A stretch of DNA of 64,000 nt, taken from positions 271,420 to 335,419 of the forward strand of contig NZ_JACESP010000001.1 of NCBI RefSeq assembly GCF_013911755.1, given 5' to 3'. Made by a program: the position numbers and the translations under genes. Positions 1 to 11,854 of the stretch are shown one piece after another (position 1 is the stretch's first letter; every line of letters begins with the position of its first letter). The notes under the pieces are model-generated. The model did no database searches. It saw nothing but the letters and a program-made list of their open reading frames with translations, and had not been told where the DNA came from. Source of the DNA: Sphingosinicella sp. (GTDB lineage: Bacteria; Pseudomonadota; Alphaproteobacteria; Sphingomonadales; Sphingomonadaceae).

Positions 1-306
1 ATGAATGCGCTTCCACGTCCGCGCCGTCAGCGGTGACTTGAACATCCAGCGGCTGTGGAGGACGTAGCGGTGCAGCAGGAACCACGCCAGCGGATAGGCC
101 GCGACGGCGATGGCGACGGAGGCCGCGCCGCGCAGCAGCGTCGTGGGATAGGCATAAGCGACATAGGCGCAAGCCACCGTCAGCAGCAGATACGCCTGAA
201 TGGCGTAATACTGGAAATAGGCGACGACGAGCTCGCGGAACGTCATCTTCGACAGGTTGTGGCTCTTGCTCCACATGCCGAGCCGATAGCCCTTGAGCAT
301 CTGCAT
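1..306 (-). CDS. Fatty acid hydroxylase / sterol desaturase family protein, C-terminal part missing
   Basis: Only the first 102 codons are in the window; the gene runs off the left edge. The visible part has two hydrophobic stretches (about residues 30-50 and 57-73), then HRYVLH and, at the edge, a second His after WKRI. That fits the first His boxes of the di-iron fatty acid hydroxylase superfamily, whose remaining His boxes would lie outside. The ATG at 306 has AGAGG upstream at suitable spacing. It follows the flippase gene after 74 bases in the same direction, so it is probably the last visible gene of the lptF-lptG-flippase operon. In that setting it may hydroxylate a ceramide acyl or long-chain base; this is inference. 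The family call rests on a partial sequence. Confidence 0.6.
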   Translation of the reverse strand, partial: MQMLKGYRLGMWSKSHNLSKMTFRELVVAYFQYYAIQAYLLLTVACAYVAYAYPTTLLRGAASVAIAVAAYPLAWFLLHRYVLHSRWMFKSPLTARTWKRIH

Positions 307-380
307 GGTACGGACCTCTGAGATTCGGGCGGCATTGCCGCAAACTACGGGGATCTTAATCCCGCCCCAATGCGGCAACT

Positions 381-1910
381 TTACGACGACGGCGTGGCGG
401 GAGCCAGACCGATGCGCGCGCCGAGGCTGCCGAGCGCGCCGCGATCGGAGCGGGCGAGCCCGAAACGCAGGCCGAGCCAGATGACGCCCAGCATCAGCGC
501 GAACATCGCGGGCAGCTCGATATAGAAGCGTGCGTGGGCGAGCCCGAGATCGGCGACCATGAGGATCGCCGCGCCCGCAAGCCCGAGGCCGACGCAGAGC
601 AGGAAACGCCAGCCGAACGGCCGGAAACCGTGCGCGATGGTAAGCTCGGCGAGCGGCAGAAAGGCGTTGGAAACGCTTGCCGCCGCGACCGCCCACGCCA
701 TGCCGACGGCGCCGTCGATGGGTACGCGCCACCACGTAACTGCGGCCCACACGCCGATGGTAAGCACGCCGTTCAGCGTCGGCAGCAGGCGGTGGCCGAT
801 CATCTCGATCACCGGACGGGCCGGGCCGATCGCGGTTTCGATGGCGCGCCCCAGAACGAGCACGACAAGCACCGGCAGCGCGGCGACAGCGTCCGGCGTG
901 AACAGCCACAGGATGCGGTCGCCGATCAGGCACAGGAACGCGGCCATCGGCAGCACGACCACGGTCGAAAGCCGCGTCGCGAAGGCGTAGAGCGGCTCGA
1001 TGGCGAGGCGGTTGACGGCGGCCTGCGCGGCGGTAAGCGGCGCCAGCACATACTGGAACACCTGCTGGAGCAGCTGCGGGATCGTCGCCACCTTGCGCGC
1101 GATGCCGTAAAGGCCCGAGGCGACGGCGCCCGCGTTGCCCGGAATGAGCGCGTTGATGACGAGCGGCGGCAGGTCGATCAGCACGCGGTAGACGACGTTG
1201 ATCGGCAGCAAGCTGATGCCGGTGACGAAGACATGCCGCGAAATTCGCCTGTCGAACGGTGTGTGCCACATGGCGCGGACATCGTAGTAGCGGGCGAGCA
1301 GGCGCACGGCGAGGATCGCAGTGACGAACAGCGACGCTGTGTGCGCGGTGACGAGCGCGAGCGTGTCCCACCCCGCGAGGAACAGGCCGAAGGCGAGCAC
1401 GAGGCGCACGCACTGCTCCCAGAATAGCCGCAGCCGCACCTCGGGGCCGAACGCGCGCCGCGCGCGGGCCGCTGCCGTCACCAGCTCGATGAACGACCAC
1501 AAAGGCAAGCCGGGCGCGAAGATCAGGATGGCAAGGCGCATGTCCGCCGCTTCGCGCGGGCCGGCGTTGACGAGGGCCGCCAGATCGCCCGCGAAGACCA
1601 TCACGAGCGCGGCGACGATGATGCTCGGCACGACGCCGAGCAGAAGTGCCGCCTTCAGCGCGGCGAGCACGTCGCGCTCGCTCCGCGACTGCGGGATCAC
1701 GCGCTGCAGCGCGCGCGTGATGGCAAGGTCTGCGACGTTGGAAACGGTGTTCACCGCCGCCCAGAGCACGGTGTAGACACCGTACACCGCGATGCCGAAC
1801 ATCCAGACGTAGGCGGGCTGCGACACCACCTCGACAAGCGCGCCGAGACGCGACAACGCTACGACGCCCGCGCCCTTGGCGACGTCAGACTTTCCAACGG
1901 CGGTGTTCAT
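381..1910 (-). CDS. Polysaccharide/lipid flippase of the MATE-like (Wzx/MurJ-type) superfamily
   Basis: A 509-residue protein made almost entirely of hydrophobic helices, starting with a short polar N-terminus and a motif-poor MATE-like fold typical of O-antigen or lipid-linked sugar flippases. It should sit in the inner membrane and move a lipid-linked substrate from the cytoplasmic to the periplasmic leaflet. Its ATG overlaps the lptG stop codon by 4 bases, so it is translationally coupled to the LptF/LptG pair. Because the surrounding genes make sphingolipids, a glycosylated or phosphorylated sphingolipid is a reasonable substrate guess, but the sequence does not show substrate. An ordinary exopolysaccharide or O-antigen flippase is the alternative. 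Confidence 0.75.
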   Translation of the reverse strand: MNTAVGKSDVAKGAGVVALSRLGALVEVVSQPAYVWMFGIAVYGVYTVLWAAVNTVSNVADLAITRALQRVIPQSRSERDVLAALKAALLLGVVPSIIVAALVMVFAGDLAALVNAGPREAADMRLAILIFAPGLPLWSFIELVTAAARARRAFGPEVRLRLFWEQCVRLVLAFGLFLAGWDTLALVTAHTASLFVTAILAVRLLARYYDVRAMWHTPFDRRISRHVFVTGISLLPINVVYRVLIDLPPLVINALIPGNAGAVASGLYGIARKVATIPQLLQQVFQYVLAPLTAAQAAVNRLAIEPLYAFATRLSTVVVLPMAAFLCLIGDRILWLFTPDAVAALPVLVVLVLGRAIETAIGPARPVIEMIGHRLLPTLNGVLTIGVWAAVTWWRVPIDGAVGMAWAVAAASVSNAFLPLAELTIAHGFRPFGWRFLLCVGLGLAGAAILMVADLGLAHARFYIELPAMFALMLGVIWLGLRFGLARSDRGALGSLGARIGLAPATPSS

Positions 1911-3010
1911 TCCTCGGTCCGGAACAGCACCGCTTCGCCGACGAGGAAGAACAGCAGGAACGGCGCCCAGCCCGCTGCCAAGGGCGGAACGGAGCCGAAC
2001 TCGCCCATCGCCACCATGAAGTTGTCGGCCACGAAATAGGCAAAGCCCAGCACCATGCCGACGACCGCGCGTGCGAACAGCCTCCCTGAGCGGGCGAGTC
2101 CGAAGGCGGTCACCGCGCCGAGCAACGGCATCAGCACGGCGGAAAGCGGCAGCGAGACCTTGTGGTAGAGCGCGACGCGCAGCGAATCCGTACTGCGCCC
2201 GACGGATTCGAGCAGGCGCGTCTGTTTCCAGAGGTCGACGATATTCGTTCGGTCGGGGTCGGGCGCACGCATCGTGAAGCGGTCGGGCTCGATACCCGCC
2301 CCGAGCCGCATCTGCGGCGCGTGCGAAAGCGCGCCCGTGCGCACGGTGAAGATACGGACGTTCTCGAGCTGCCAGGCGTTGCGGTCCGGGCGGGCGCTTG
2401 CGGCGTTGATGATCTGGCGCAGGCGGCTACCGTCGCGGCGGTCGACGCGCACGCCATGAAGCACGGTCGACGCGCCGCTTCCGGTCACGCTGTCGGCATG
2501 GATGATCTCGCGCCCCTCGCGCACCCACACGTCGGTGAGCGGATTGGTGTCGATTTTTGCGTCGCGCCGGTATTCGGCCTTTTCCCACGCGATGAGTTCC
2601 GCATTCGTGCGCACCAGCACCATCTCGTTGAACGCGAAGTGAAACAGCGAGACGCTGAGCGCCGCCGCCATCATCGGGTAGAGGATTTGATGCGCGGAAA
2701 GTCCTGCCGCGCGGAAGATCGTCACCTCGCTGTTCTGGCTTAGCGTCGCCATCGTCACGAGCGCGCCGAGCAGCACGGAGAAGGGCAGGAACTGCGAGAT
2801 GAGCTGCGGAACGCGAAGCTGCACGTAGCGCAGCAGCTCGGCGTTGCCGTTGCCGTCGATGGCAAGGATCTTGTTCGATTCCGTCAGCAGGTCGAGCGTC
2901 TGCAATATGGCGACGAGGCCGATCGCGAAGGCGAGCGTTCGCAGCATGAACATGCGCGCCGTGTAAGTCGCGATGGTGCGAGAGGGCCAGAATGTCAGCG
3001 CGCTGCTCAT
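1907..3010 (-). CDS. lptG: LptG-type permease (YjgP/YjgQ family), possibly for sphingolipid export
   Basis: A 367-residue LptF/LptG-family permease with the usual plan: two or three N-terminal membrane helices, a periplasmic beta-jellyroll domain in the middle (about residues 120-260) and three C-terminal helices. In LPS export such a protein pairs with LptF and the LptB ATPase to lift lipid out of the inner membrane. The open frame extends upstream, but ATG 3010 is chosen because it overlaps the lptF stop by 4 bases and begins at the family's normal N-terminus (MSSALTFWPSRTIATY). The neighbours are sphingolipid genes and many sphingomonads carry glycosphingolipid instead of LPS, so this may be a paralogue dedicated to sphingolipid. 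No lptB or lptC is visible here. Confidence 0.88.
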   Translation of the reverse strand: MSSALTFWPSRTIATYTARMFMLRTLAFAIGLVAILQTLDLLTESNKILAIDGNGNAELLRYVQLRVPQLISQFLPFSVLLGALVTMATLSQNSEVTIFRAAGLSAHQILYPMMAAALSVSLFHFAFNEMVLVRTNAELIAWEKAEYRRDAKIDTNPLTDVWVREGREIIHADSVTGSGASTVLHGVRVDRRDGSRLRQIINAASARPDRNAWQLENVRIFTVRTGALSHAPQMRLGAGIEPDRFTMRAPDPDRTNIVDLWKQTRLLESVGRSTDSLRVALYHKVSLPLSAVLMPLLGAVTAFGLARSGRLFARAVVGMVLGFAYFVADNFMVAMGEFGSVPPLAAGWAPFLLFFLVGEAVLFRTEE

Positions 3011-4257
3011 GCTGTGCGCACCCTTCCCAAGCGGCGCCGCAGCAGGCGCCACAGGCTGACGATCCACTTGGTGACGATGCCCGCGCCGCGCTCGATCATC
3101 GCGATCGGCTGGCCTCCCGGTACGTTCGCCAGCACGTGGAAGAACCACGCGCAGAGCAGGCTGAACGCGATGAAGCTGCCCCACTGGCTGAGCACGATGT
3201 CGGCCTTGCCCGCAGCGCCGGAGCGCTCGGCGGCTTCTGAAATCTCGTTATAGACGATGAGGATGGTGAGCGCGGCGAACACGCCAACCGCCGAGGTCGA
3301 GCGCTTCGGCGGCACCGCGAGCGCCACGGCGAGCAGCGGAATCACCATCACGGCGAACACCTGCACGAGCCGCCGATGCAGGTTCGCGCGCACGGCGTGC
3401 CGGTTTTCCTCGGTGGTGGTGCCCTGACCGAGATAGCCGACGCGGTAGAGTTCGGGGAGGGTCAGTTCATTGTCGTCAGCTTCGGCGCCCCGAATGCGGA
3501 ACAGCTCGATCTGCGGCAGATCGATCGGCAGGTCGTGCATCCGGAAGCTCAGGACGCGCGGTTGCCTGTAGCCAGGCGCGTCGTGCACGAGCGTACCATC
3601 GGTGAGCCGCAGCAGGATCACGTCGGGATCGTCGGTGGCAAGAAAGGTGCCTCGCGCGGCGGTGACAGAGACGGTCTTGCCGTCCGCGCTCTGGCCGCTG
3701 ACGAAGATGCCGCGCAGGTCGCGGCCATGATTGCGGCTTTCCTCGACGCGGAGCGTGGTGTTGCGCGCCACCTGCACGAACTCGCCCACGTCGATCGTCG
3801 CGCCGAGCGCGCCCGAACGCAGCTCGAATTCCAAGCCCTCATACGCATAGCGGCTGATCGGCTGGATGAAACCGACGATGAGCAGCGTGAGAAGCCCGAG
3901 GAGCAGCGCATACATGTAGGGGACGCGCAGCATCCGCATGTAGCTGATGCCGACGGCGCGCATCGCATCGAGTTCGCTCGAAAGCGCCAGATTCCGGAAA
4001 GCGAGCAATATGCCAAGGAGAAGGCCAACGGGAATTCCCAGGCCCAGATACTGCGGAATGAGGTTGCCGAGCATACGCCAGACGACTGAGGCCGGTCCGC
4101 CTTCGTTCACCACGAAGTCGAACAATTTCAGCATCTTCTCCAGCAATAGCAGCATGGCCGCGATCATCAGTGTCGCGAACAACGGCACCGCGATCAGCCG
4201 CGCCATGTACCTGTCGAACCGGGCCAGCATCTCTTGGTTTTGTCGATCCTTGGTCAA
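3007..4257 (-). CDS. lptF: LptF-type permease (YjgP/YjgQ family), partner of the downstream LptG
   Basis: A 416-residue permease of the same family as its neighbour. The N-terminal segment MLARFDRYMARLIA leads into membrane helices, followed by SSELDAMRAVGISYMRML, which resembles the coupling-helix region that contacts LptB in LPS exporters. A periplasmic domain and three C-terminal helices follow. It is first in a leftward operon lptF-lptG-flippase-hydroxylase and is divergent from the DUF2141/lipid kinase operon across a 90-base gap. It should form a heterodimer with LptG in the inner membrane. Whether the load is LPS or an anionic sphingolipid cannot be read from sequence; context favours the second. 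Confidence 0.88.
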   Translation of the reverse strand: MTKDRQNQEMLARFDRYMARLIAVPLFATLMIAAMLLLLEKMLKLFDFVVNEGGPASVVWRMLGNLIPQYLGLGIPVGLLLGILLAFRNLALSSELDAMRAVGISYMRMLRVPYMYALLLGLLTLLIVGFIQPISRYAYEGLEFELRSGALGATIDVGEFVQVARNTTLRVEESRNHGRDLRGIFVSGQSADGKTVSVTAARGTFLATDDPDVILLRLTDGTLVHDAPGYRQPRVLSFRMHDLPIDLPQIELFRIRGAEADDNELTLPELYRVGYLGQGTTTEENRHAVRANLHRRLVQVFAVMVIPLLAVALAVPPKRSTSAVGVFAALTILIVYNEISEAAERSGAAGKADIVLSQWGSFIAFSLLCAWFFHVLANVPGGQPIAMIERGAGIVTKWIVSLWRLLRRRLGRVRTA

Positions 4258-4347
4258 ATTTTGGCCGCAAGCGGACCCGATACCACGGTGAGACAGGGAT
4301 GCATCAACAATTTGGTGATTCGCGAAGGGGGAAGGTCGAGGAGGTTC
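4258..4347. promoter_or_regulatory. Divergent intergenic region between lptF and the DUF2141 gene
   Basis: Ninety bases separate the starts of two divergent operons and must hold both promoters. GAGGAGG at about 4338-4344 is a strong ribosome binding site for the plus-strand gene at 4348. I see no clear -35/-10 pair or operator that I would defend. Confidence 0.5.
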
Positions 4348-4896
4348 ATGGTGCTGAAGCGTTCAAATGCGGTTATCCGGGGGCTGGTCCGTTCGCTTGT
4401 CGCGTCAACGGTGGTTCTTGGTGCATTTTCAACGCCCGCCGTGGCTCAGACGATCATCGGCCCCGATGCCGCCGCCTGTGCGCCGGGCGCGCGCGGTCCG
4501 GCCGCGCTCGTGCGCGTGTATGGCTTCAAGGACCGCGAAGGGAACCTCCGTGTTCAGGTCTACAGCGACAAGCCCGACGAGTTTCTGGAAAAGGGCAAGT
4601 ATCTGAAGCGCATCCAGCTGCCCATGACAGCGTCCGGCGACATGAACGTCTGCATGGCCCTGCCGCGTTTCGGCGAATTCTCGATGGTCGTGCTTCACGA
4701 CCGCGACGTGAACGGCAAGCTCTCCGTCTCGAAGGACGGCGTCGGCTTTTCGGGCAATCCGAAACTTGGCCTGTCCAAGCCCGATTATGACGACGCGATG
4801 TTCGTCGCGCGCGACGGGGTGACGGTCGTCGATGTGATCCTGAATTACCGGCAGGGGCTGTTTTCCGTGAAGCCCCTTGTGGCAAGGCGCGACTGA
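4348..4896 (+). CDS. Exported DUF2141 domain protein of the sphingolipid locus
   Basis: A 182-residue protein with a Sec signal peptide (hydrophobic stretch about residues 12-28, then STPAVAQ) and a DUF2141 domain recognisable from the LVRVYGFKDREGNLRV opening and the conserved K..FSGNPKLGLSKP end. DUF2141 domains are beta-sandwich periplasmic modules of unknown biochemistry. The frame is open for 38 codons upstream, but ATG 4348 has GAGGAGG at ideal spacing and begins the signal peptide. Its stop codon abuts the start of the lipid kinase gene, so the two are co-translated. In Caulobacter a gene of this type sits in the ceramide phosphoglycerate cluster (Cpg proteins, from memory). A periplasmic role in finishing or carrying the sphingolipid is inference. 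Confidence 0.8.
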   Translation: MVLKRSNAVIRGLVRSLVASTVVLGAFSTPAVAQTIIGPDAAACAPGARGPAALVRVYGFKDREGNLRVQVYSDKPDEFLEKGKYLKRIQLPMTASGDMNVCMALPRFGEFSMVVLHDRDVNGKLSVSKDGVGFSGNPKLGLSKPDYDDAMFVARDGVTVVDVILNYRQGLFSVKPLVARRD

Positions 4897-5868
4897 ATGG
4901 CCTGCGTCGCGCTCCTCTCCAATCCGCGCTCGACCGGCAACAAGGCCGCGTTGCCGCGCATCCGGGAGTTCGTGGCGCAGCACCCGAACATCTTCCACTA
5001 CGAAGTGGGCGATATCTCCGAAGTGCCCGACGCGCTCGCCATGATCGCGCGCGTGAAGCCGGCTGTGCTCGTCATCAACGGCGGTGACGGCACGGTGCAG
5101 GCCGCGCTCACCGAGATTTACAACGGCCACCACTTCAAGGGCGCGGTGCCGCCGCTCGCGGTGCTGCCGAACGGCAAGACCAACCTTATCGCGCTCGATC
5201 TCGGCGCCGGTGCCAATCCGGTCGAGGCGCTTGGTAACATCCTCAAGATCGTGGAGACGGGTGTTGATCCGCACGTCGTCGCGCGGCAACTGATTGCGCT
5301 CAGCGACGGCATCGCGGCACGCCCGGTGTTCGGCATGTTCCTTGGCGGCGCTGGTCTTGCAGAGGCGATCCTGTTCTGCCGCAACAAGATTTACCCGCTC
5401 GGCTTGCCGAACTGGGTGAGCCATCTCATGGCGATCTTCGTGGTGCTCGCAAGCGTGCTCGTCGGCGTGGGTGCGCGCTGGAATCCCGTCAAGCCGAGCC
5501 CGATGCGCGTCTCGCTGCACCGTGGCGGCAAGCCTGTCGAGGGAAGCTTCTTCGTGCTGATGGTGACGACGCTCGAACGGTTGCTGCTGAATTTCGCGAC
5601 GCCGTTCAACGATCACGGCGGATCGCTGAAGCTGATGGCGATCGAGCAGCGCCGGGGCACGATCTTCAAGGCGCTGCTTTCGGCGCTCGCCGGGCGGCTC
5701 GGCAGCGCGCGCTTCAACGGCCTTCACCTGCGCCGCGGCGACGAGATCCGCATTGAGGGCAAGCGCGCCAGCGTCATCCTCGACGGTGAGCTTTACGAAG
5801 CGGGCGAAGGGCATTCGATCGTGCTGACGCCCACCGCGCCGGTGTCCTTCCTCAGCCTCGCGGCATGA
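4897..5868 (+). CDS. Diacylglycerol/ceramide kinase family protein (candidate ceramide kinase, CpgB-like)
   Basis: A 323-residue protein of the DAGK catalytic/LCB5 superfamily, which phosphorylates diacylglycerol, sphingosine or ceramide using ATP. Visible marks are the SNPRSTGNK nucleotide-loop start (residues 8-16) and GGDGT at 62-66, followed by LPNGKTN. The C-terminal half has the family's beta-rich lipid-binding domain and ends with the ILDGELYEAGEGHSI stretch. The gene starts directly after the DUF2141 stop and overlaps the next gene by 4 bases. Since spt, the carrier protein, cerR and the acyl-AMP ligase lie a few kilobases away in the order known from Caulobacter, ceramide is the most likely substrate. 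Substrate remains inference. Confidence 0.82.
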   Translation: MACVALLSNPRSTGNKAALPRIREFVAQHPNIFHYEVGDISEVPDALAMIARVKPAVLVINGGDGTVQAALTEIYNGHHFKGAVPPLAVLPNGKTNLIALDLGAGANPVEALGNILKIVETGVDPHVVARQLIALSDGIAARPVFGMFLGGAGLAEAILFCRNKIYPLGLPNWVSHLMAIFVVLASVLVGVGARWNPVKPSPMRVSLHRGGKPVEGSFFVLMVTTLERLLLNFATPFNDHGGSLKLMAIEQRRGTIFKALLSALAGRLGSARFNGLHLRRGDEIRIEGKRASVILDGELYEAGEGHSIVLTPTAPVSFLSLAA

Positions 5869-6782
5869 CGGCGCTCGTGCCGCTCGTTGCGGCCGAGCTG
5901 GAAACGCCTGCCGCGCCCGAAGTCGCCGATTTCGCCAAGGCGATCGCCGGTCGTTGCGGTGGCGCCGCGCAGGCGGTGCTGTTCTACGGCTCGTGCCTTA
6001 GAAGCGAAGACCTCGGCGATTCGCTTCTCGATTTCTATCTGCTCGTCGATTCCTACAACCGCGCCTACACGCGCCGCTGGATGGCGACGGCGAACCGGCT
6101 GATCCCGCCCAACGTCTTTTACGCGGAGCATGAAGGCCTGCGCGCCAAGTTCGCGGTGATGTCCCTCGAAGATTTCGCGCATGCGTGCTCCCCGGATTGC
6201 GACAACGTTTCGGTCTGGGCGCGGTTCGCGCAGCCCTCGCGGCTCGTCTGGGTGCGCGGCGATGCGGCGCGTGCGCGCGTCATCCGTGCGGTTGCGACGG
6301 CCGCGCCGACATTGCTCAAGACCGCGCGGCCGATGCTGGACGATGATCTCAGCATCGAAGCGCTGTGGACCGGCGCCTTCGCGCTCACCTACGCTTCCGA
6401 ACTCAGGTCCGAACGTGCCGGGCGTGGCCAGTCGATCTTCGAAACCGATCCCGCGCGCTATACCGCGTTTACCGCGCCCGCCATCGCGGACAGCGATCTC
6501 GCGGCGGAGGTGCGCGGCGGCATTGTGCATTTCCGCGCGCATACCGATCGCAAAGCCGGCGAACGCGCGTGGGCGAGACTCCGCCGCCGGGGCAAGCTGC
6601 TTTCGGTGCTGCGGCTCGCGAAGGCGAGTTTCACCTTCAAGGGCGGCGTGGATTACATCGCGTGGAAGGTGAACCGCCACGCGGGCGCGGGCATCATCGT
6701 GAAGCCCTGGCACCGCCGCTTCCCGATCCTCGCCGGGCTCGTGTTGTTGCCGAGGCTCATTCGCAAGGGGGCGGTGCGGTAG
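5865..6782 (+). CDS. Tam41-like nucleotidyltransferase of the sphingolipid locus
   Basis: A 305-residue soluble protein. Near the start it has FYGSCLR (residues 40-46), then DSLLDFYLLVDSY (52-64) and NVFYAEHEG, a layout resembling the GS..D.D catalytic core of nucleotidyltransferases and especially the mitochondrial CDP-diacylglycerol synthase Tam41. A basic C-terminal tail (PRLIRKGAVR) could touch membranes. It overlaps the lipid kinase gene by 4 bases, so it probably works on the phosphorylated lipid, for instance activating it with CTP before a head group is attached. A gene of this type is part of the Caulobacter ceramide phosphoglycerate set. The catalytic step is inference; the fold call is moderate. 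Confidence 0.65.
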   Translation: MTALVPLVAAELETPAAPEVADFAKAIAGRCGGAAQAVLFYGSCLRSEDLGDSLLDFYLLVDSYNRAYTRRWMATANRLIPPNVFYAEHEGLRAKFAVMSLEDFAHACSPDCDNVSVWARFAQPSRLVWVRGDAARARVIRAVATAAPTLLKTARPMLDDDLSIEALWTGAFALTYASELRSERAGRGQSIFETDPARYTAFTAPAIADSDLAAEVRGGIVHFRAHTDRKAGERAWARLRRRGKLLSVLRLAKASFTFKGGVDYIAWKVNRHAGAGIIVKPWHRRFPILAGLVLLPRLIRKGAVR

Positions 6783-6889
6783 CGGCGATCGAAAATCGCG
6801 CGGCTGGAAACCGAAACTCGACTTCTGTGACGGCTTGGTCAAAAAGACGGAAACATCCGTTCGGGTGACCTTTCGAGGGGGAGGACCGT

Positions 6890-7621
6890 ATCCAAACGCG
6901 AACCACCGAGATTGCTCCGGGCATCCACCGCGTGTCGACACATGTCGCTGATATTGCGCCGCCCGCGGGTTTCACATTCAATCAGTTCCTGATCGTTGCG
7001 GATGAACCCTTGCTCTTTCATTGCGGACCCCGCTCGCTCTTCGCATCGGTCTCGTCAGCCGTCGCAGCCATCCTGCCGCTTGATCGCCTCCGCTGGATCA
7101 GTTTCGGGCATATCGAGGCCGATGAATGCGGTGCGATGAACCTGTGGCTTGAAGCCGCGCCCCAAGCGCAGGTCGTCTACAGCCCGCTTGGATGCAATAT
7201 CTCGGTCAATGATCTCGCGGACCGTGCGCCTCGGGCTCTGGGCGAAGACGAGGTGATGGATCTTGGCGGCAAGAGCGTTCGGCTTGTTCCCACGCCGCAT
7301 GTCCCGCACGGCTGGGAAGCGCAGATGCTTTACGAGGAAACGACCGCCACACTCTTTTGCGGGGATGTGTTTACGCAGGTCGGGGACGGCGAGGCTGTAA
7401 CGGCAAGCGACATTGTTCCGGCAGCCATGGCCGCAGAAGACATGTTCCAGGCAACCAGTCTCACGCCCGATACCGCACCAACGCTGCGCCGATTGGCGGA
7501 TTTGGCGCCCAGCCTGCTCGCCGTCATGCACGGCTCATCCTTCCGGGGAGACGGGGCGGAGGCGCTTCGCAGGCTGGCCGACGAATACGAGCGACGCCTG
7601 AACGTCGCGGCTACGCGTTGA
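6890..7621 (+). CDS. Metallo-beta-lactamase-fold di-iron oxygen-binding (ODP-type) protein, start codon uncertain
   Basis: The protein has the metal ligands of the ODP domain of flavodiiron proteins rather than the hydrolase HxHxDH set. Counting from the GTG at 6932 these are H60-x-E62-x-D64, H123 or H126, D145 and H200. There is no flavodoxin domain. The first ordinary start is that GTG, but family-like sequence (TTEIAPGIHRVST) continues upstream, and a strong GGGGGAGGA at 6877-6885 is followed after a short gap by ATC at 6890, with an in-frame TGA at 6866. I therefore give 6890 as the likely start. It lies downstream of the Tam41-like gene and converges on spt, overlapping its 3' end by 11 bases. 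Function in the locus is unknown; an oxygen-dependent or redox step is possible. Confidence 0.7.
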   Translation: MQTRTTEIAPGIHRVSTHVADIAPPAGFTFNQFLIVADEPLLFHCGPRSLFASVSSAVAAILPLDRLRWISFGHIEADECGAMNLWLEAAPQAQVVYSPLGCNISVNDLADRAPRALGEDEVMDLGGKSVRLVPTPHVPHGWEAQMLYEETTATLFCGDVFTQVGDGEAVTASDIVPAAMAAEDMFQATSLTPDTAPTLRRLADLAPSLLAVMHGSSFRGDGAEALRRLADEYERRLNVAATR

Positions 7622-8819
7622 GCGAAATCCCCGCGATCTCCGCCGCCTGCACGAAGCGATCGATGATGATGTCCACCTGTTCGGCGCGATGCTCCGCGCA
7701 GAGCGAGCAGCGCAGCAGGAACATGCCAGCGGGCGTCGCGGGCGGACGCGCCATGTTGACGTAGACGCCAAGCTCGATGAGCGCGCTCCACATGCGCGCG
7801 CACGCTTCCTGGCCCGGCATCAGCACAGCGATGATGGCGCTTTCTGCGGTCTCGGTGGCGATCGTGAAGCCCTTGGCCTTGAGCCCCGAATGCAGCTTGC
7901 GACTGTTTTCCCACAGATGCTGGCGCTTGTTATGCGCGTGCTTCAGCTTGCGGATGGATGTCGCTGCCGTGGCGACGACGCTCGGCGGCAGCGAGGCAGT
8001 GAACACGTAAGGCCGGCAGACGAGGCGCAGCACCTCGAACTTCGGGTGGTTGGAAACGACGAAGCCGCCGACGGTGCCCACCGATTTCGAGAAGGTGCCA
8101 ACGACGAAATCGACGTCCGCCTCGACGCCTGCGGCCTCATAAACGCCGCGTCCGTTCGGGCCGAAGAAGCCCATGCCGTGCGCTTCGTCGACGACGACCA
8201 TGGCGCCGTATTTCTTGGCGACCGCGACCATTTCTTTGAGTGGCGCGATGTCGCCCAGCATCGAATAGACGCCTTCGAGGACGACGAGCTTGCCTGCCTC
8301 CGCCGGAAGGCGACCGAGACGCTTGTCGAGGTCTTCCACGCTGTTGTGACGGAAGCGCACGATGTCGGCGTTGCCCATCGCGCAGCCGTCGTAGATGGAG
8401 GCGTGGCTGTCGGCGTCGAGGATGATGTATTCGCCCCGTGCCGCCATCGTTGCCATCAGGCCGAGGTTCGCCTGGTAGCCGGTGGAGAAGACCATGGCGT
8501 GGCTGGTGCCGTAGAAATCCTTCAGCGCTTCCTCGACCTCGCGGTGGCCCTGATAGGTGCCGTTCAGCACGCGGCTGCCGGTGGTCCCTGCGCCGAATTC
8601 GTCGAGCGCCTGCTTGCCCGCCGCGATCACGTCGGGGTCGAAGGTCATGCCCATGTAATTATAGGTGCCGACGAGAATGGTCTCGCGCCCGTTCACCGTC
8701 GCTTCGGTCGGTGAATGGACCTTCTCCATCACGAGGTTGAACGGGTCGTTGACACCCGTCGCCAGCAGCGCGGCCTTTTCGGCGATGATCGGGTCGAATT
8801 TATCGAAAAGATCGCCCAT
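7611..8819 (-). CDS. spt: Serine palmitoyltransferase
   Basis: A 402-residue PLP enzyme of the alpha-oxoamine synthase family that condenses L-serine with an acyl thioester to 3-ketosphinganine, the committed step of sphingolipid synthesis. The PLP lysine is K245 in GTFSKSVGTVGG; D211 and H214 in VVDEAHGMG and H139 in DADSHAS are the expected cofactor contacts. Length and motifs match the soluble homodimeric enzyme of Sphingomonas. It is last in the leftward operon acyl-AMP ligase, cerR, acyl carrier protein, spt, with 9 bases between the carrier protein stop and this start. The neighbouring dedicated carrier protein suggests an acyl-ACP substrate. AONS or KBL are alternatives, but the context makes SPT far more likely. 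Confidence 0.95.
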   Translation of the reverse strand: MGDLFDKFDPIIAEKAALLATGVNDPFNLVMEKVHSPTEATVNGRETILVGTYNYMGMTFDPDVIAAGKQALDEFGAGTTGSRVLNGTYQGHREVEEALKDFYGTSHAMVFSTGYQANLGLMATMAARGEYIILDADSHASIYDGCAMGNADIVRFRHNSVEDLDKRLGRLPAEAGKLVVLEGVYSMLGDIAPLKEMVAVAKKYGAMVVVDEAHGMGFFGPNGRGVYEAAGVEADVDFVVGTFSKSVGTVGGFVVSNHPKFEVLRLVCRPYVFTASLPPSVVATAATSIRKLKHAHNKRQHLWENSRKLHSGLKAKGFTIATETAESAIIAVLMPGQEACARMWSALIELGVYVNMARPPATPAGMFLLRCSLCAEHRAEQVDIIIDRFVQAAEIAGISLNA

Positions 8820-8828
8820 CGTCTCGCC

Positions 8829-9077
8829 TCAGCCGTTCACGATCTTGGCGACGGCATCGGCAAGCTGGCCGATCGTCTCCAGCTCGGGGAGCAGGTTCAT
8901 CGGCAGGATGATGTCGTATTCGTCCTCGATGTTGGCGACGAGGTCCATCACGGTGAGCGAGTCCAGCTCAAGATCGCTCGCGAAGCTGGTGTCCTCGGAG
9001 AGCGCGATCCCCTTGCGGTTCAGCGGCTCGATCAGTTCCAGCAGCTTTGGGAGGATGGTGTCGCGTGTGTGCGCCAT
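8829..9077 (-). CDS. Dedicated acyl carrier protein of sphingolipid synthesis
   Basis: An 82-residue carrier protein with the phosphopantetheine serine in DLELDSLTVMDLV (around residue 40) and an acidic helix II (NIEDEYDIILP) as in acyl carrier proteins. The frame is open far upstream, but ATG 9077 has CAGGA in front and gives the normal ACP length. It lies between cerR and spt in one leftward operon. It should present the fatty acyl chain loaded by the neighbouring acyl-AMP ligase to serine palmitoyltransferase, as proposed for the equivalent protein in Caulobacter. It would need to be made active by AcpS, which is encoded at 40025. Confidence 0.92.
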   Translation of the reverse strand: MAHTRDTILPKLLELIEPLNRKGIALSEDTSFASDLELDSLTVMDLVANIEDEYDIILPMNLLPELETIGQLADAVAKIVNG

Positions 9078-9147
9078 GCGTATGTCCTGAAATGTCGTTG
9101 GGGCTCGATGCCAACAGATTGTGGCAGGGGATAGGCAGACAGGCGGT

Positions 9148-10056
9148 CTAAATCCAGCCTGCGTTCCGGTACCATGCCGCCGTTCGTGCGATGCCCTCTG
9201 CCGCGGGAACCTCAGGCGTCCAGATGCCGAGCGCGCGCAGGGGCGCGCTGTCCGCCACCCAGTCCGGATGCGCGAGATAGCGCGCACGGTCGAAGCTGAG
9301 CGCGGGCAAGCGCCCGGCGAGCTTCGCGCCGAGCGTGTCGATCGCGGCGCCGAGCCTCAGCGCCGCTGGGGGCAACGGAATGTAGGTCGGCGTCTTGTCG
9401 AGCGCTGCGGCGATATGCGCGGCCATCTCGCGGTGGCTGAGCCCGCCGGGCGTTCCATCGTCGATCTCGAAGGTGCCGCTTGGCGCCGGGTTTTCCGTGA
9501 GTGCGAGCAGCGCCCGCGCAAGGTCGGACACCTCGACGATCGAAAAGCGTCCACCACCCGGCAGCAGCGCCCAGCCGCGCGCGACGAGCTTGTAGACGTT
9601 CGCCGTCTCACGGTCGCCGGGTCCGTAGACAGCAGGCGGACGCACGATCGCTGCATCGGGGCGGGCGGTTTCGACGAGCGCGTCGGCGGCCGCCTTGGTG
9701 TTGCCGTAGATGGAAAGCGCCGGCTCGCGCGCTGCGAGCGAGGAGACGTGAACGAAACGCGGAACGTCCCGGCTCGCCTCCAGCATCGCGCGCGTGCCCT
9801 CCACATTGCCAGCAGCAAATTCCAGCGGCGTGCGGGCGTTGATGATGCCCGCGACATGGATCACCGCGTCCGCGCCCTCTGTCAGACGGGCGAGTGCATC
9901 GCGATTGCCGAGATCCCCCGCGATCCATTCGACGCCATGCCGTTCCGGTTGCGTGCGGCGCGCAAGCGCGCGAACAGCTTGGCCCTTTTCAAGCGCAAGA
10001 TCGATCAGCTTCGACCCGACGAAGCCGGTTCCGCCGGTGATGGCGAGTGTCGTCAT
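9148..10056 (-). CDS. cerR: NAD-dependent epimerase/dehydratase-family 3-ketosphinganine reductase candidate
   Basis: A 302-residue extended short-chain dehydrogenase. GGTGFVG at residues 8-14 is the dinucleotide-binding loop, VSS at 104-106 and Y117-x3-K121 (YGNTK) are the catalytic set, and HVAGIINA follows the usual HVAA pattern. In Caulobacter the gene between the carrier protein and the acyl-CoA synthetase in the same order encodes CerR, reported to reduce the 3-keto group after N-acylation. Here it sits between the acyl-AMP ligase (14 bases upstream) and the carrier protein (70 bases downstream). The family call is secure; the substrate is inferred from synteny. Confidence 0.82.
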   Translation of the reverse strand: MTTLAITGGTGFVGSKLIDLALEKGQAVRALARRTQPERHGVEWIAGDLGNRDALARLTEGADAVIHVAGIINARTPLEFAAGNVEGTRAMLEASRDVPRFVHVSSLAAREPALSIYGNTKAAADALVETARPDAAIVRPPAVYGPGDRETANVYKLVARGWALLPGGGRFSIVEVSDLARALLALTENPAPSGTFEIDDGTPGGLSHREMAAHIAAALDKTPTYIPLPPAALRLGAAIDTLGAKLAGRLPALSFDRARYLAHPDWVADSAPLRALGIWTPEVPAAEGIARTAAWYRNAGWI

Positions 10057-10069
10057 GCGCCGGGCGGCG

Positions 10070-11854
10070 TCAGGCCGCGATGTCGAGCGGCTGGATCTGG
10101 CCGGAGAGGTAGAGCGCGCGGGCCTTGGAGCGGCTGAGCTTGCCCGAGCTGGTGCGCGGCAGCGTGCGCGGCGGGACCAGTTCTACGATACAGTTCATGC
10201 CGGTGATGGCGCGCACCTTGGTCTTGATCGTTTCGCGCAGGTCGGCGCGTTCGGCGGCATCGCTGGTGCGGCACTGGACGAGCACGGCGGGCGCTTCCTC
10301 GCCGCCTTCCGTGGTGATCGAGAACGCGGCGATGTCGCCCGCCTTGAAGCCCGGAAGCTGCTCGATTGCCCACTCGATGTCCTGCGGCCAGTGGTTCTTG
10401 CCGTTGATGATGATCATGTCCTTGGCGCGGCCGACGATGTAGAGCGCGCCGTCCAGCATGTAGCCCATGTCACCGGTATCGAGCCAGCGGCCCTGCAGCG
10501 CTGCGCGGGTAGAGATTTCGTCGCGGAAATAGCCGGTCATGATGCTGGGGCCCGCCACGAACACTTTGCCGATCTGGCGGTCGCCAAGGCGGCGTCCGGC
10601 CTCGTCGCGGATTTCGATTTCCATGCCCGGCAGGGCGACACCGCAGTTCACGATCGCGCGCATCCGGCCCGTACCGGCACCAGTATCCTCGCGCTCGCCC
10701 GAAAGCAGACGCTCATCGACGAGATCGGTGACGATGCCCGTGCCCACCGGAGAAATGGTAACGGCAAGCGTCGCTTCTGCGAGGCCGTAGCTCGGCAGGA
10801 ACGCACCGCCCGAAAATCCTGCGGGCGCGAACGCTTCCACGAAGGCGTTCATGACGTCCGGGCGGATCATGTCGGCGCCGTTGCCTGCCACGCGCCAGCG
10901 CGACAGGTCGAACCGCTCGGCGATATCGGTCTGGCTGGAAACGCGGCGCGCGCAGATGTCGTAGCCGAAGGTCGGCGAGTAAGAGAGGCTGTGGCCCTCA
11001 TTGCGCGTGATGAGCGCGAGCCATGAGAGGGGACGGCGCGCGAAATCCTCAGTGGCGAGGTAATCGGCGGAAACCTGGTTCGCGATCGGCGCCATCAGGC
11101 AGCCGACGAGGCCCATGTCGTGATAATAAGGCAGCCAGGAGATGACGCGGTCGTCGCGGCGAAGCTGCACGCCGACGGCATGGCCGTTGAGGTTCGCGAG
11201 CAGCGCCTCGTGCGTGATTTCCACACCGTGCGGGAAGCGCGTCGAGCCGCTCGAATACTGGAGGTAGGCAATGTCGGCCTTGCGCGCCGACGGCAGCGCA
11301 GCGGGCTTCGCGTCGCGCGCCATGAAGTTCAGCCAGTCATGCGCGGTGCGGCAGCGCAGGCCGTGTGCGGCTTCCGCCACGATCGCAGCAAGGCCGGACG
11401 GCGCAAACACGATCTCGGGGTCGCAGGAGGTGAGCTGGCTGCGGATCTGCTCCACATAACCTTCGCGTCCGCCGAACGAGGTCGGCAGCGGCAGCGGCAC
11501 GGGCAGCGCACCGGCGTATATGGCGCCGAAGAACAGGCTTACGAAATCCGCGCTCGTCTCGGCGATCAGTGCCACGCGGTCACCCGGCTTGATGCCGGCG
11601 GCGATCAGCCGGTAGGCGTTGGCGGTCGCATCGACCTTGAGGTCCGAAAACGTCAGGACGCGCGCGAGCCGCGCCCGCGCATCGAAGAAGTTGAGGCCGC
11701 GCTTGCCCTGCGCCGCATAATCCAATGCTTCGCCAAGCGTGTTGAAGTCCGCCAGACGGCGCGGCAAATCGTCGAGCGTCGGCGTTGGCGCCAGCGCCGT
11801 TTCATCGGCGCCGGACAGCGCAAGCGCGCTCGAATCCGAAGTGCGATTCAGCAA
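10070..11854 (-). CDS. Fatty acyl-AMP ligase / acyl-ACP synthetase of the sphingolipid operon
   Basis: A 594-residue adenylate-forming enzyme. It shows YLQYSSGSTRFP (P-loop A3 motif), PYYHDMGLVG, SYGLAEATL (A5), LDTGDMGYM (A7) and RTLPRTSSGKLSR with the catalytic C-terminal Lys. The motif pattern is that of fatty acyl-AMP ligases, which load fatty acids onto a carrier protein, here probably the ACP two genes downstream. The open frame extends to 12130 but TTG 11854 has GAGGAGG nine bases upstream and starts the normal N-terminus; the extension would run across the recX promoter. It is first in the operon, so its divergent gap with recX holds the operon promoter. The equivalent Caulobacter gene is needed for ceramide synthesis. 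Confidence 0.88.
   Translation of the reverse strand: MLNRTSDSSALALSGADETALAPTPTLDDLPRRLADFNTLGEALDYAAQGKRGLNFFDARARLARVLTFSDLKVDATANAYRLIAAGIKPGDRVALIAETSADFVSLFFGAIYAGALPVPLPLPTSFGGREGYVEQIRSQLTSCDPEIVFAPSGLAAIVAEAAHGLRCRTAHDWLNFMARDAKPAALPSARKADIAYLQYSSGSTRFPHGVEITHEALLANLNGHAVGVQLRRDDRVISWLPYYHDMGLVGCLMAPIANQVSADYLATEDFARRPLSWLALITRNEGHSLSYSPTFGYDICARRVSSQTDIAERFDLSRWRVAGNGADMIRPDVMNAFVEAFAPAGFSGGAFLPSYGLAEATLAVTISPVGTGIVTDLVDERLLSGEREDTGAGTGRMRAIVNCGVALPGMEIEIRDEAGRRLGDRQIGKVFVAGPSIMTGYFRDEISTRAALQGRWLDTGDMGYMLDGALYIVGRAKDMIIINGKNHWPQDIEWAIEQLPGFKAGDIAAFSITTEGGEEAPAVLVQCRTSDAAERADLRETIKTKVRAITGMNCIVELVPPRTLPRTSSGKLSRSKARALYLSGQIQPLDIAA

Follow-up and report, generated by a model that had tools for sequence, protein, structure and literature searches.

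In Caulobacter crescentus, phosphosphingolipids have been proposed to reach the outer membrane by way of LptC2, LptF2 and LptG2 together with a flippase (CC_1168, CC_1156, CC_1155 and CC_1166, respectively; Olea-Ozuna et al. 2024, PMC11324152). The available portions of that paper report largely good orthologs of the Caulobacter cluster in S. wittichii and Z. mobilis, include neither a tree nor a survey of copy number, leave the proposed transport uninvestigated and call the route not known. In the accessible part of a second source, no flippase or transporter is identified for bacterial sphingolipids (PMC11087976). Our literature search, which covered few subscription papers, returned no later test of the Caulobacter LptF2/LptG2/LptC2 export idea among the matches listed. 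Here we analyze an lptF-lptG (lptFG) pair and an adjoining flippase gene located close to the serine palmitoyltransferase gene (spt) of Sphingosinicella sp. The stretch analyzed, hereafter the window, comprises 64,000 nucleotides and corresponds to positions 271420-335419 of contig 1 (G000:C1) in a 3.63-Mb genome that is 99.94% complete.

We propose, with a probability of about three in four, that this pair is a sphingolipid exporter feeding the old LptC/A/D bridge, and that the canonical pair was lost together with lipopolysaccharide (LPS). The exporter lineage itself is real and conserved, and it is very probably for sphingolipid.

Profile searches of the genome with PF03739 revealed two matches, both at the window locus, which is thus the sole lptFG pair. 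A preliminary description of this DNA had taken the pair for a second copy, which does not hold in this genome. No match to LpxC, which catalyses the committed step of lipid A synthesis, was found in this genome or in any of 118 Sphingomonadales genomes searched; of 14 control genomes, E. coli, Caulobacter and two others gave a match in the same search. LPS loss is judged here from LpxC alone. The genome therefore holds this pair only, and holds it without LpxC rather than beside a complete LPS pathway. Exactly two PF03739 matches were found in 33 of the 35 genomes from its own family, and three in G019 and G110. The third LptF-like gene of G019 is highly divergent and has a DUF2141 gene nearby (L060, G019:C1:249000-255000).

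We then compared 193 alphaproteobacterial genomes that are at least 95% complete. Serine palmitoyltransferase (SPT) scores split cleanly, at least 362 bits against at most 263 bits, which defined 31 SPT-positive genomes. Among the 12 that also carry LpxC, 11 have at least four PF03739 matches (the five of G134 include one gene split across contigs) and one, G173, has two. The 19 SPT-positive genomes lacking LpxC have two matches in 17 cases, three in G019 and none in G164, and none of them has four. Genomes with LpxC and no SPT (n = 154) have two matches in 143 cases, three in 5, one in 4, none in 1 and four in G131, and those with neither marker (n = 8) have none in 5 cases and two in 3. Having four or more matches is thus associated with SPT among LpxC-positive genomes (11/12 versus 1/154, Fisher 3e-15, relatedness ignored), as is retention of the pair among LpxC-less genomes (Fisher 0.004, relatedness ignored). 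Eight families are represented among the 11 dual-pair genomes, and 11 families among the 19 SPT-positive LpxC-less genomes. Two families, f26 and f75, each contain an LpxC-less genome with a sphingolipid-type pair (G232 and G184, respectively) and an LpxC-positive relative (G135 and G266), and LPS has therefore probably been lost more than once, as judged from gene content. The second lptFG pair of G131, in an LpxC-positive genome without spt, is very divergent (L058, G131:C2:498000-503500).

The pairs fall into two lineages. In an LptF tree with E. coli as outgroup, the sphingolipid-type clade comprises 43 rows (support 99/96, starred) and the canonical clade 20 rows (100/99, starred). This tree omits four long rows (L058, L060, L044 and L010), and its rooting is uncertain because the E. 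coli branch is long. With all 67 rows included, the canonical 20 remain one starred clade (100/94) and the spt label takes 4 changes instead of 1; the label "other" in that tree includes sphingomonad pairs away from spt, which are regrouped as sphingolipid type in the outgroup tree. The LptG tree, drawn without L058 and L060, agrees with LptF, with the canonical 20 rows in one clade (100/99, starred). All 18 pairs from SPT-positive LpxC-less genomes are on the sphingolipid side of both trees. Both pairs could be placed for 10 of the 11 dual-pair genomes, G284 being left out, and 9 of these have one pair of each lineage. The LptF and LptG of the window are outside the canonical clades, and the linkage to spt recurs elsewhere. 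The idea of a paralogous exporter thus stands at the level of the class, where a separate lineage and nine genomes with one pair of each kind are observed, and falls only for the window genome, which has no second pair.

Traces of the missing canonical pair are visible at its usual site. At 21 canonical loci from LpxC-positive genomes, lptFG adjoins lptD in 15 and pepA in 16; pepA likewise adjoins lptF in E. coli. In 17 of 21 lptD regions from LpxC-less genomes, pepA and lptD are divergent neighbours and lptFG is missing from the gap that separates them (about 1 kb in L171); the 4 other regions contain no pepA within the 9 kb examined. This arrangement would be the expected remnant of a deletion of lptFG from an ancestral pepA, lptF-lptG-lptD order, and loss of the canonical pair together with LPS is the best reading. 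Since LpxC is absent and no lptFG lies between pepA and lptD, the sphingolipid-linked pair is the only extractor left. Alternatively, the canonical pair could have been recruited to sphingolipids within the order, its divergence being a by-product of LPS loss; most sphingomonads have one pair only, and fast change after loss of a ligand can distort trees. This scenario is very improbable, as the sphingolipid-linked lineage coexists with a canonical pair in nine genomes outside the order and the canonical site is without lptFG in the 17 regions just described.

LptB, LptC, LptA and LptD are encoded elsewhere in the window genome, in the usual gene order, as lptC-lptA-lptB-rpoN (L082, contig C3) and lptD-surA (L083, contig C23). 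LptB (TIGR04406, 363.7 bits, cut-off 240) and LptC (TIGR04409, 40.0 bits, cut-off 38) pass their equivalog models. LptA passes PF03968 (69.2 against 20.4) and is below TIGR03002 (55.9 against 71.7), and LptD passes PF04453 (224.4 against 22.4) and is below NF002997 (88.7 against 683). Such a set of partners is also what an ordinary LPS exporter, lying near spt by accident, would display. Both LptF and LptG match the PF03739 profile along their full length, LptG passes the NCBIfam equivalog model TIGR04408, and LptF narrowly misses TIGR04407 (227.1 against 230). An LPS exporter is nevertheless scarcely credible here, given that neither this genome nor any of the 118 from the order has LpxC, that the pair is outside the canonical clade and away from the pepA-lptD site, and that the nine genomes with both LPS and sphingolipid markers have a separate canonical pair.

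The two lineages may share one bridge. Among 40 genomes examined, 38 have one lptD match, G164 lacks any, and G284 has two, which complement each other as fragments at the ends of contigs. PF06835 detected no second LptC, with at most one match in each of the 40 genomes, dual-pair genomes included, although a diverged LptC2 would escape this profile; one match was found in the window genome and none in 4 genomes, G164 among them. As the nine genomes with one pair per lineage each have one LptD and one detected LptC, the outer-membrane translocon and bridge are probably shared by both pairs, on the evidence of gene number.

The genes and coordinates of the window confirm that spt, its carrier protein, cerR, an acyl-AMP ligase, a lipid kinase, a Tam41-like gene, a DUF2141 gene and the lptF-lptG-flippase-hydroxylase genes form one block, as first described. 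The features are:

C1:269798-270943, left of the window, 8 bases past the hydroxylase: GNAT-like (CerS-like) open reading frame (ORF); GNAT match sub-threshold.
1..306, minus strand: fatty-acid hydroxylase, 5' part, with ATG at 306, running leftward out of the window; PF04116 9.1e-20 on the whole ORF (L003:15953-16726).
381..1910, minus strand: MOP/Wzx-type flippase; PF01943 25.7 bits, slightly below the cut-off of 28.2; 4-base overlap with lptG.
1907..3010, minus strand: LptG of the sphingolipid-linked lineage (LptG tree); PF03739 1.9e-70; TIGR04408 285.7 bits, cut-off 240.
3007..4257, minus strand: LptF of the sphingolipid-linked lineage (LptF trees); PF03739 1.5e-56; TIGR04407 227.1 bits, cut-off 230.
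About 4336..4896, plus strand: DUF2141 protein, divergent from lptF; PF09912 4.2e-19; N terminus signal-like by eye.
4897..5868, plus strand: lipid kinase, probable CpgB-type ceramide kinase; PF00781; neighbours agree with CC_1160 in the available part of PMC11324152.
5865..6782, plus strand: nucleotidyltransferase-like protein ("Tam41-like"), probable counterpart of CpgA/CC_1161; no Pfam match; YGS and D-Y motifs conserved.
6932..7621, plus strand: ODP-family metallo-beta-lactamase-fold ORF, convergent with spt; PF19583.
7611..8819, minus strand: serine palmitoyltransferase (spt); NF047603 758.2 bits, cut-off 670.
8829..9080, minus strand: acyl carrier protein, AcpR type; PF00550.
9148..10056, minus strand: ceramide reductase cerR, NAD-dependent epimerase family; PF01370; context as in the available part of PMC11324152.
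10070..about 11890 (approximate start), minus strand: acyl-AMP ligase, AasR type; PF00501 7.9e-53.

The LptF of the window shares 97% identity with its Sphingosinicella microcystinivorans counterpart, which places the organism in Sphingosinicella or close to it. Four-base overlaps, described initially for the whole lptF-lptG-flippase-hydroxylase row, are found between lptF and lptG (3007-3010) and between lptG and the flippase gene (1907-1910), and also between the kinase and Tam41-like genes (5865-5868); no such overlap involves the hydroxylase gene, whose ATG at 306 lies about 75 bases after the flippase stop codon. The name "Tam41-like" is kept from the preliminary description and from gene position. 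The Tam41 identity itself was unconfirmed by sequence: Pfam gave no hit up to E 1, and in the PDB a nucleotidyltransferase domain matched only weakly (E 0.015).

The CerS-like ORF has no NCBIfam match and its name rests on position. Its homologs are found close to the sphingolipid-type lptFG at most loci, and close to spt in the two SPT-positive genomes without such a pair (L018 and L019). In Caulobacter, the ceramide gene CC_1154 comes next after lptG2 (CC_1155) by gene number (PMC11324152, in part). This ORF is therefore probably the ceramide synthase. The DUF2141 gene adjoins lptF, divergently, in 62 of 80 named loci; these loci are the top 80 among 565 matches, all labelled as Sphingomonadales or Alphaproteobacteria, and were compared with flanks of up to 10 kb. 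Comparison of its product with the PDB gave no relative; the protein is perhaps a periplasmic component of the transport path. The ODP-family ORF is present in only one of these 80 loci (L087, Sphingosinicella soli) and is probably not core to the cluster.

Collinear copies of the window block are found in further families of the order and, outside it, in G143 and G239. Linkage of lptFG to sphingolipid genes is therefore well above chance. A non-canonical pair is present in 29 SPT-positive genomes (the 31 minus G173 and G164, with the divergent pair of G296 counted). In 18 of these, spt lies within 15 kb of the pair on the same contig; 7 more have the kinase or the CpgA-like gene near the pair and 3 a CerS-like gene, G284 being left out. 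Within the 80 named loci, spt, the kinase or the CpgA-like gene was found in the flank of 71 and a CerS-like gene in the remaining 9, so that no locus is without a flanking sphingolipid gene. The non-canonical pair likewise sits with sphingolipid genes in dual-pair genomes, and canonical loci gave no match to the CerS-like or hydroxylase gene, most of the stretches compared there being shorter. In five named loci, lptD-surA is located a few kb upstream of the sphingolipid-type pair (L103, L119, L127, L135 and L137, from two Sandarakinorhabdus, Sandaracinobacter, Sandaracinobacteroides and one UBA genome).

Several observations weigh against a sphingolipid exporter, and some of them suit the alternative that the pair carries some other lipid of the envelope (an anionic phospholipid, a hopanoid or a lipid-linked polysaccharide) and has only its regulation in common with the sphingolipid genes. 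The identity of the cargo is deduced from genes. LptB2FG(C) of P. aeruginosa can bind cardiolipin in vitro (PMC12738788, in part). Three of the eight genomes without SPT and LpxC still keep an lptFG pair. Across the 118 genomes of the order, where LptF/G is present in 109, LptD in 112 and SPT in 112 (in the other 6, matches score no higher than related enzymes do), there are two PF03739 matches in 94 genomes, one in 1 and none in 9, and extra copies are present despite the absence of LpxC, with three matches in 9 genomes, four in 3 and five in 2. G003, G058, G064, G079 and G093, with four or five matches, argue against a strict rule of one pair per lipid. Export of another lipid is nonetheless unlikely, since presence of the pair tracks sphingolipid genes across the class and its linkage to spt, CpgA/B-like or CerS-like genes survives rearrangement.

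The other contrary points come from individual genomes and one residue. G173 (L017, L018) has spt and LpxC, a canonical lptFG pair only and no CpgA-like gene; its sphingolipid is either unexported or carried by the canonical pair. G164 is a 5.4-Mb single contig with spt, a CerS-like gene, cerR and an acyl-AMP ligase (L019, G164:C1:1500000-1519000), in which genome profile searches gave no LptFG, LptD, LptC, LpxC or CpgA-like match. Sphingolipid synthesis is thus not always accompanied by a sphingolipid-type pair. In G296, the pair adjacent to spt forms a long branch close to the canonical side. Finally, LptF position 33 is basic in 17 of 20 canonical proteins and also in 38 of 44 of the sphingolipid type.

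Contact residues had been considered as a sign of ligand change. The LptG positions aligned to E. coli K40 and K41, which we take to contact LPS, are basic in 18 and 19 of the 20 canonical proteins, respectively, and mostly not in the 44 sphingolipid-type ones. In the available part of a P. aeruginosa study, Lys33 of LptF contacts a lipid A phosphate and the contacts of LptG TM1 are partly acidic (PMC12738788). The approach was dropped because of these acidic contacts and because position 33 of LptF is basic in both lineages.

Sphingomonads carry glycosphingolipids in place of LPS. The export of a sphingolipid by the window pair, as suggested initially, gains support in that the pair is tied to sphingolipid genes by position and evolution in an LpxC-less genome; the headgroup of this cargo may be anionic or glycosylated. 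The CpgA-like family (A2) is present in 26 of the 31 SPT-positive genomes and in none of the 162 others. Twenty-five of these 26 have a sphingolipid-type pair by tree, and the remaining one, G284, is not in the trees. The SPT-positive genomes without a CpgA-like gene are G005, G012, G164, G173 and G296. As G005 and G012, both from the window's own family, have a sphingolipid-type pair, ceramide phosphoglycerate is unlikely to be the sole cargo; in these two genomes it is an improbable cargo altogether, and a glycosphingolipid is the natural candidate. Neither the CpgA-like gene nor the sphingolipid-type pair is present in G164 and G173, which fits an exporter needed for decorated sphingolipids, but two genomes are few.

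In the transport path that we propose, ceramide would be built by the AasR, AcpR, Spt, CerS-like and CerR proteins, as homology and position suggest. In many relatives it may then be phosphorylated and decorated by the CpgB-like and CpgA-like enzymes. The flippase encoded in the same operon as lptFG would bring the lipid across the inner membrane to its outer face, from which LptF/LptG, with LptB, would pull it towards LptC, LptA and LptD in turn, and LptD would place it in the outer leaflet. We lean towards a broader picture in which the Lpt bridge is modular, one LptB/C/A/D line serving interchangeable inner-membrane extractors, one for LPS and one for sphingolipid, and in which Alphaproteobacteria several times dropped LPS with its extractor and turned to sphingolipid, supplied by the second extractor, for rebuilding the outer leaflet. 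The LptD of sphingomonads would then be a sphingolipid translocon.

The route of bacterial sphingolipids to the outer membrane was called unknown in 2024 (PMC11324152, in part), and the pattern described here offers a specific, testable answer. Sphingomonads are a clean system for this purpose, with LpxC and the canonical extractor both missing. If the proposal is true, an antibiotic target, the Lpt machine, would have no built-in specificity for LPS, and the basis of its lipid choice could be located by comparing the two sister LptF/LptG lineages.

The window locus resembles the E. coli LptB2FGC-A-D system in its protein families and in the usual arrangement of the LptC-LptA-LptB and LptD-SurA genes, and differs from it by the absence of LpxC and by an LptF/LptG pair from a separate clade at another locus. 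A CpgB-like kinase and a CpgA-like protein beside spt recall the CpgA-D ceramide phosphoglycerate pathway of Caulobacter (PMC10331486 and PMC12275187, each in part). Like the Caulobacter LptF2/LptG2 set, the window lptF/lptG and flippase genes lie in the spt/cpg region, and position together with the dual-pair genomes suggests that the pair is orthologous to CC_1156/CC_1155. In Caulobacter this set is a second one in an LPS maker, whereas the window pair is the sole pair of a genome without LpxC, in which PF06835 found no second LptC. The Caulobacter export idea, with second LptC/F/G copies for phosphosphingolipids, is already in print (PMC11324152, in part); new here are the class-wide test, the two lineages, the scar, and the single LptD and LptC match of dual-pair genomes. 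That idea gains much in strength and becomes directly testable with the pattern across the class, the status of the pair as sole exporter in LpxC-less bacteria, and the putative deletion scar.

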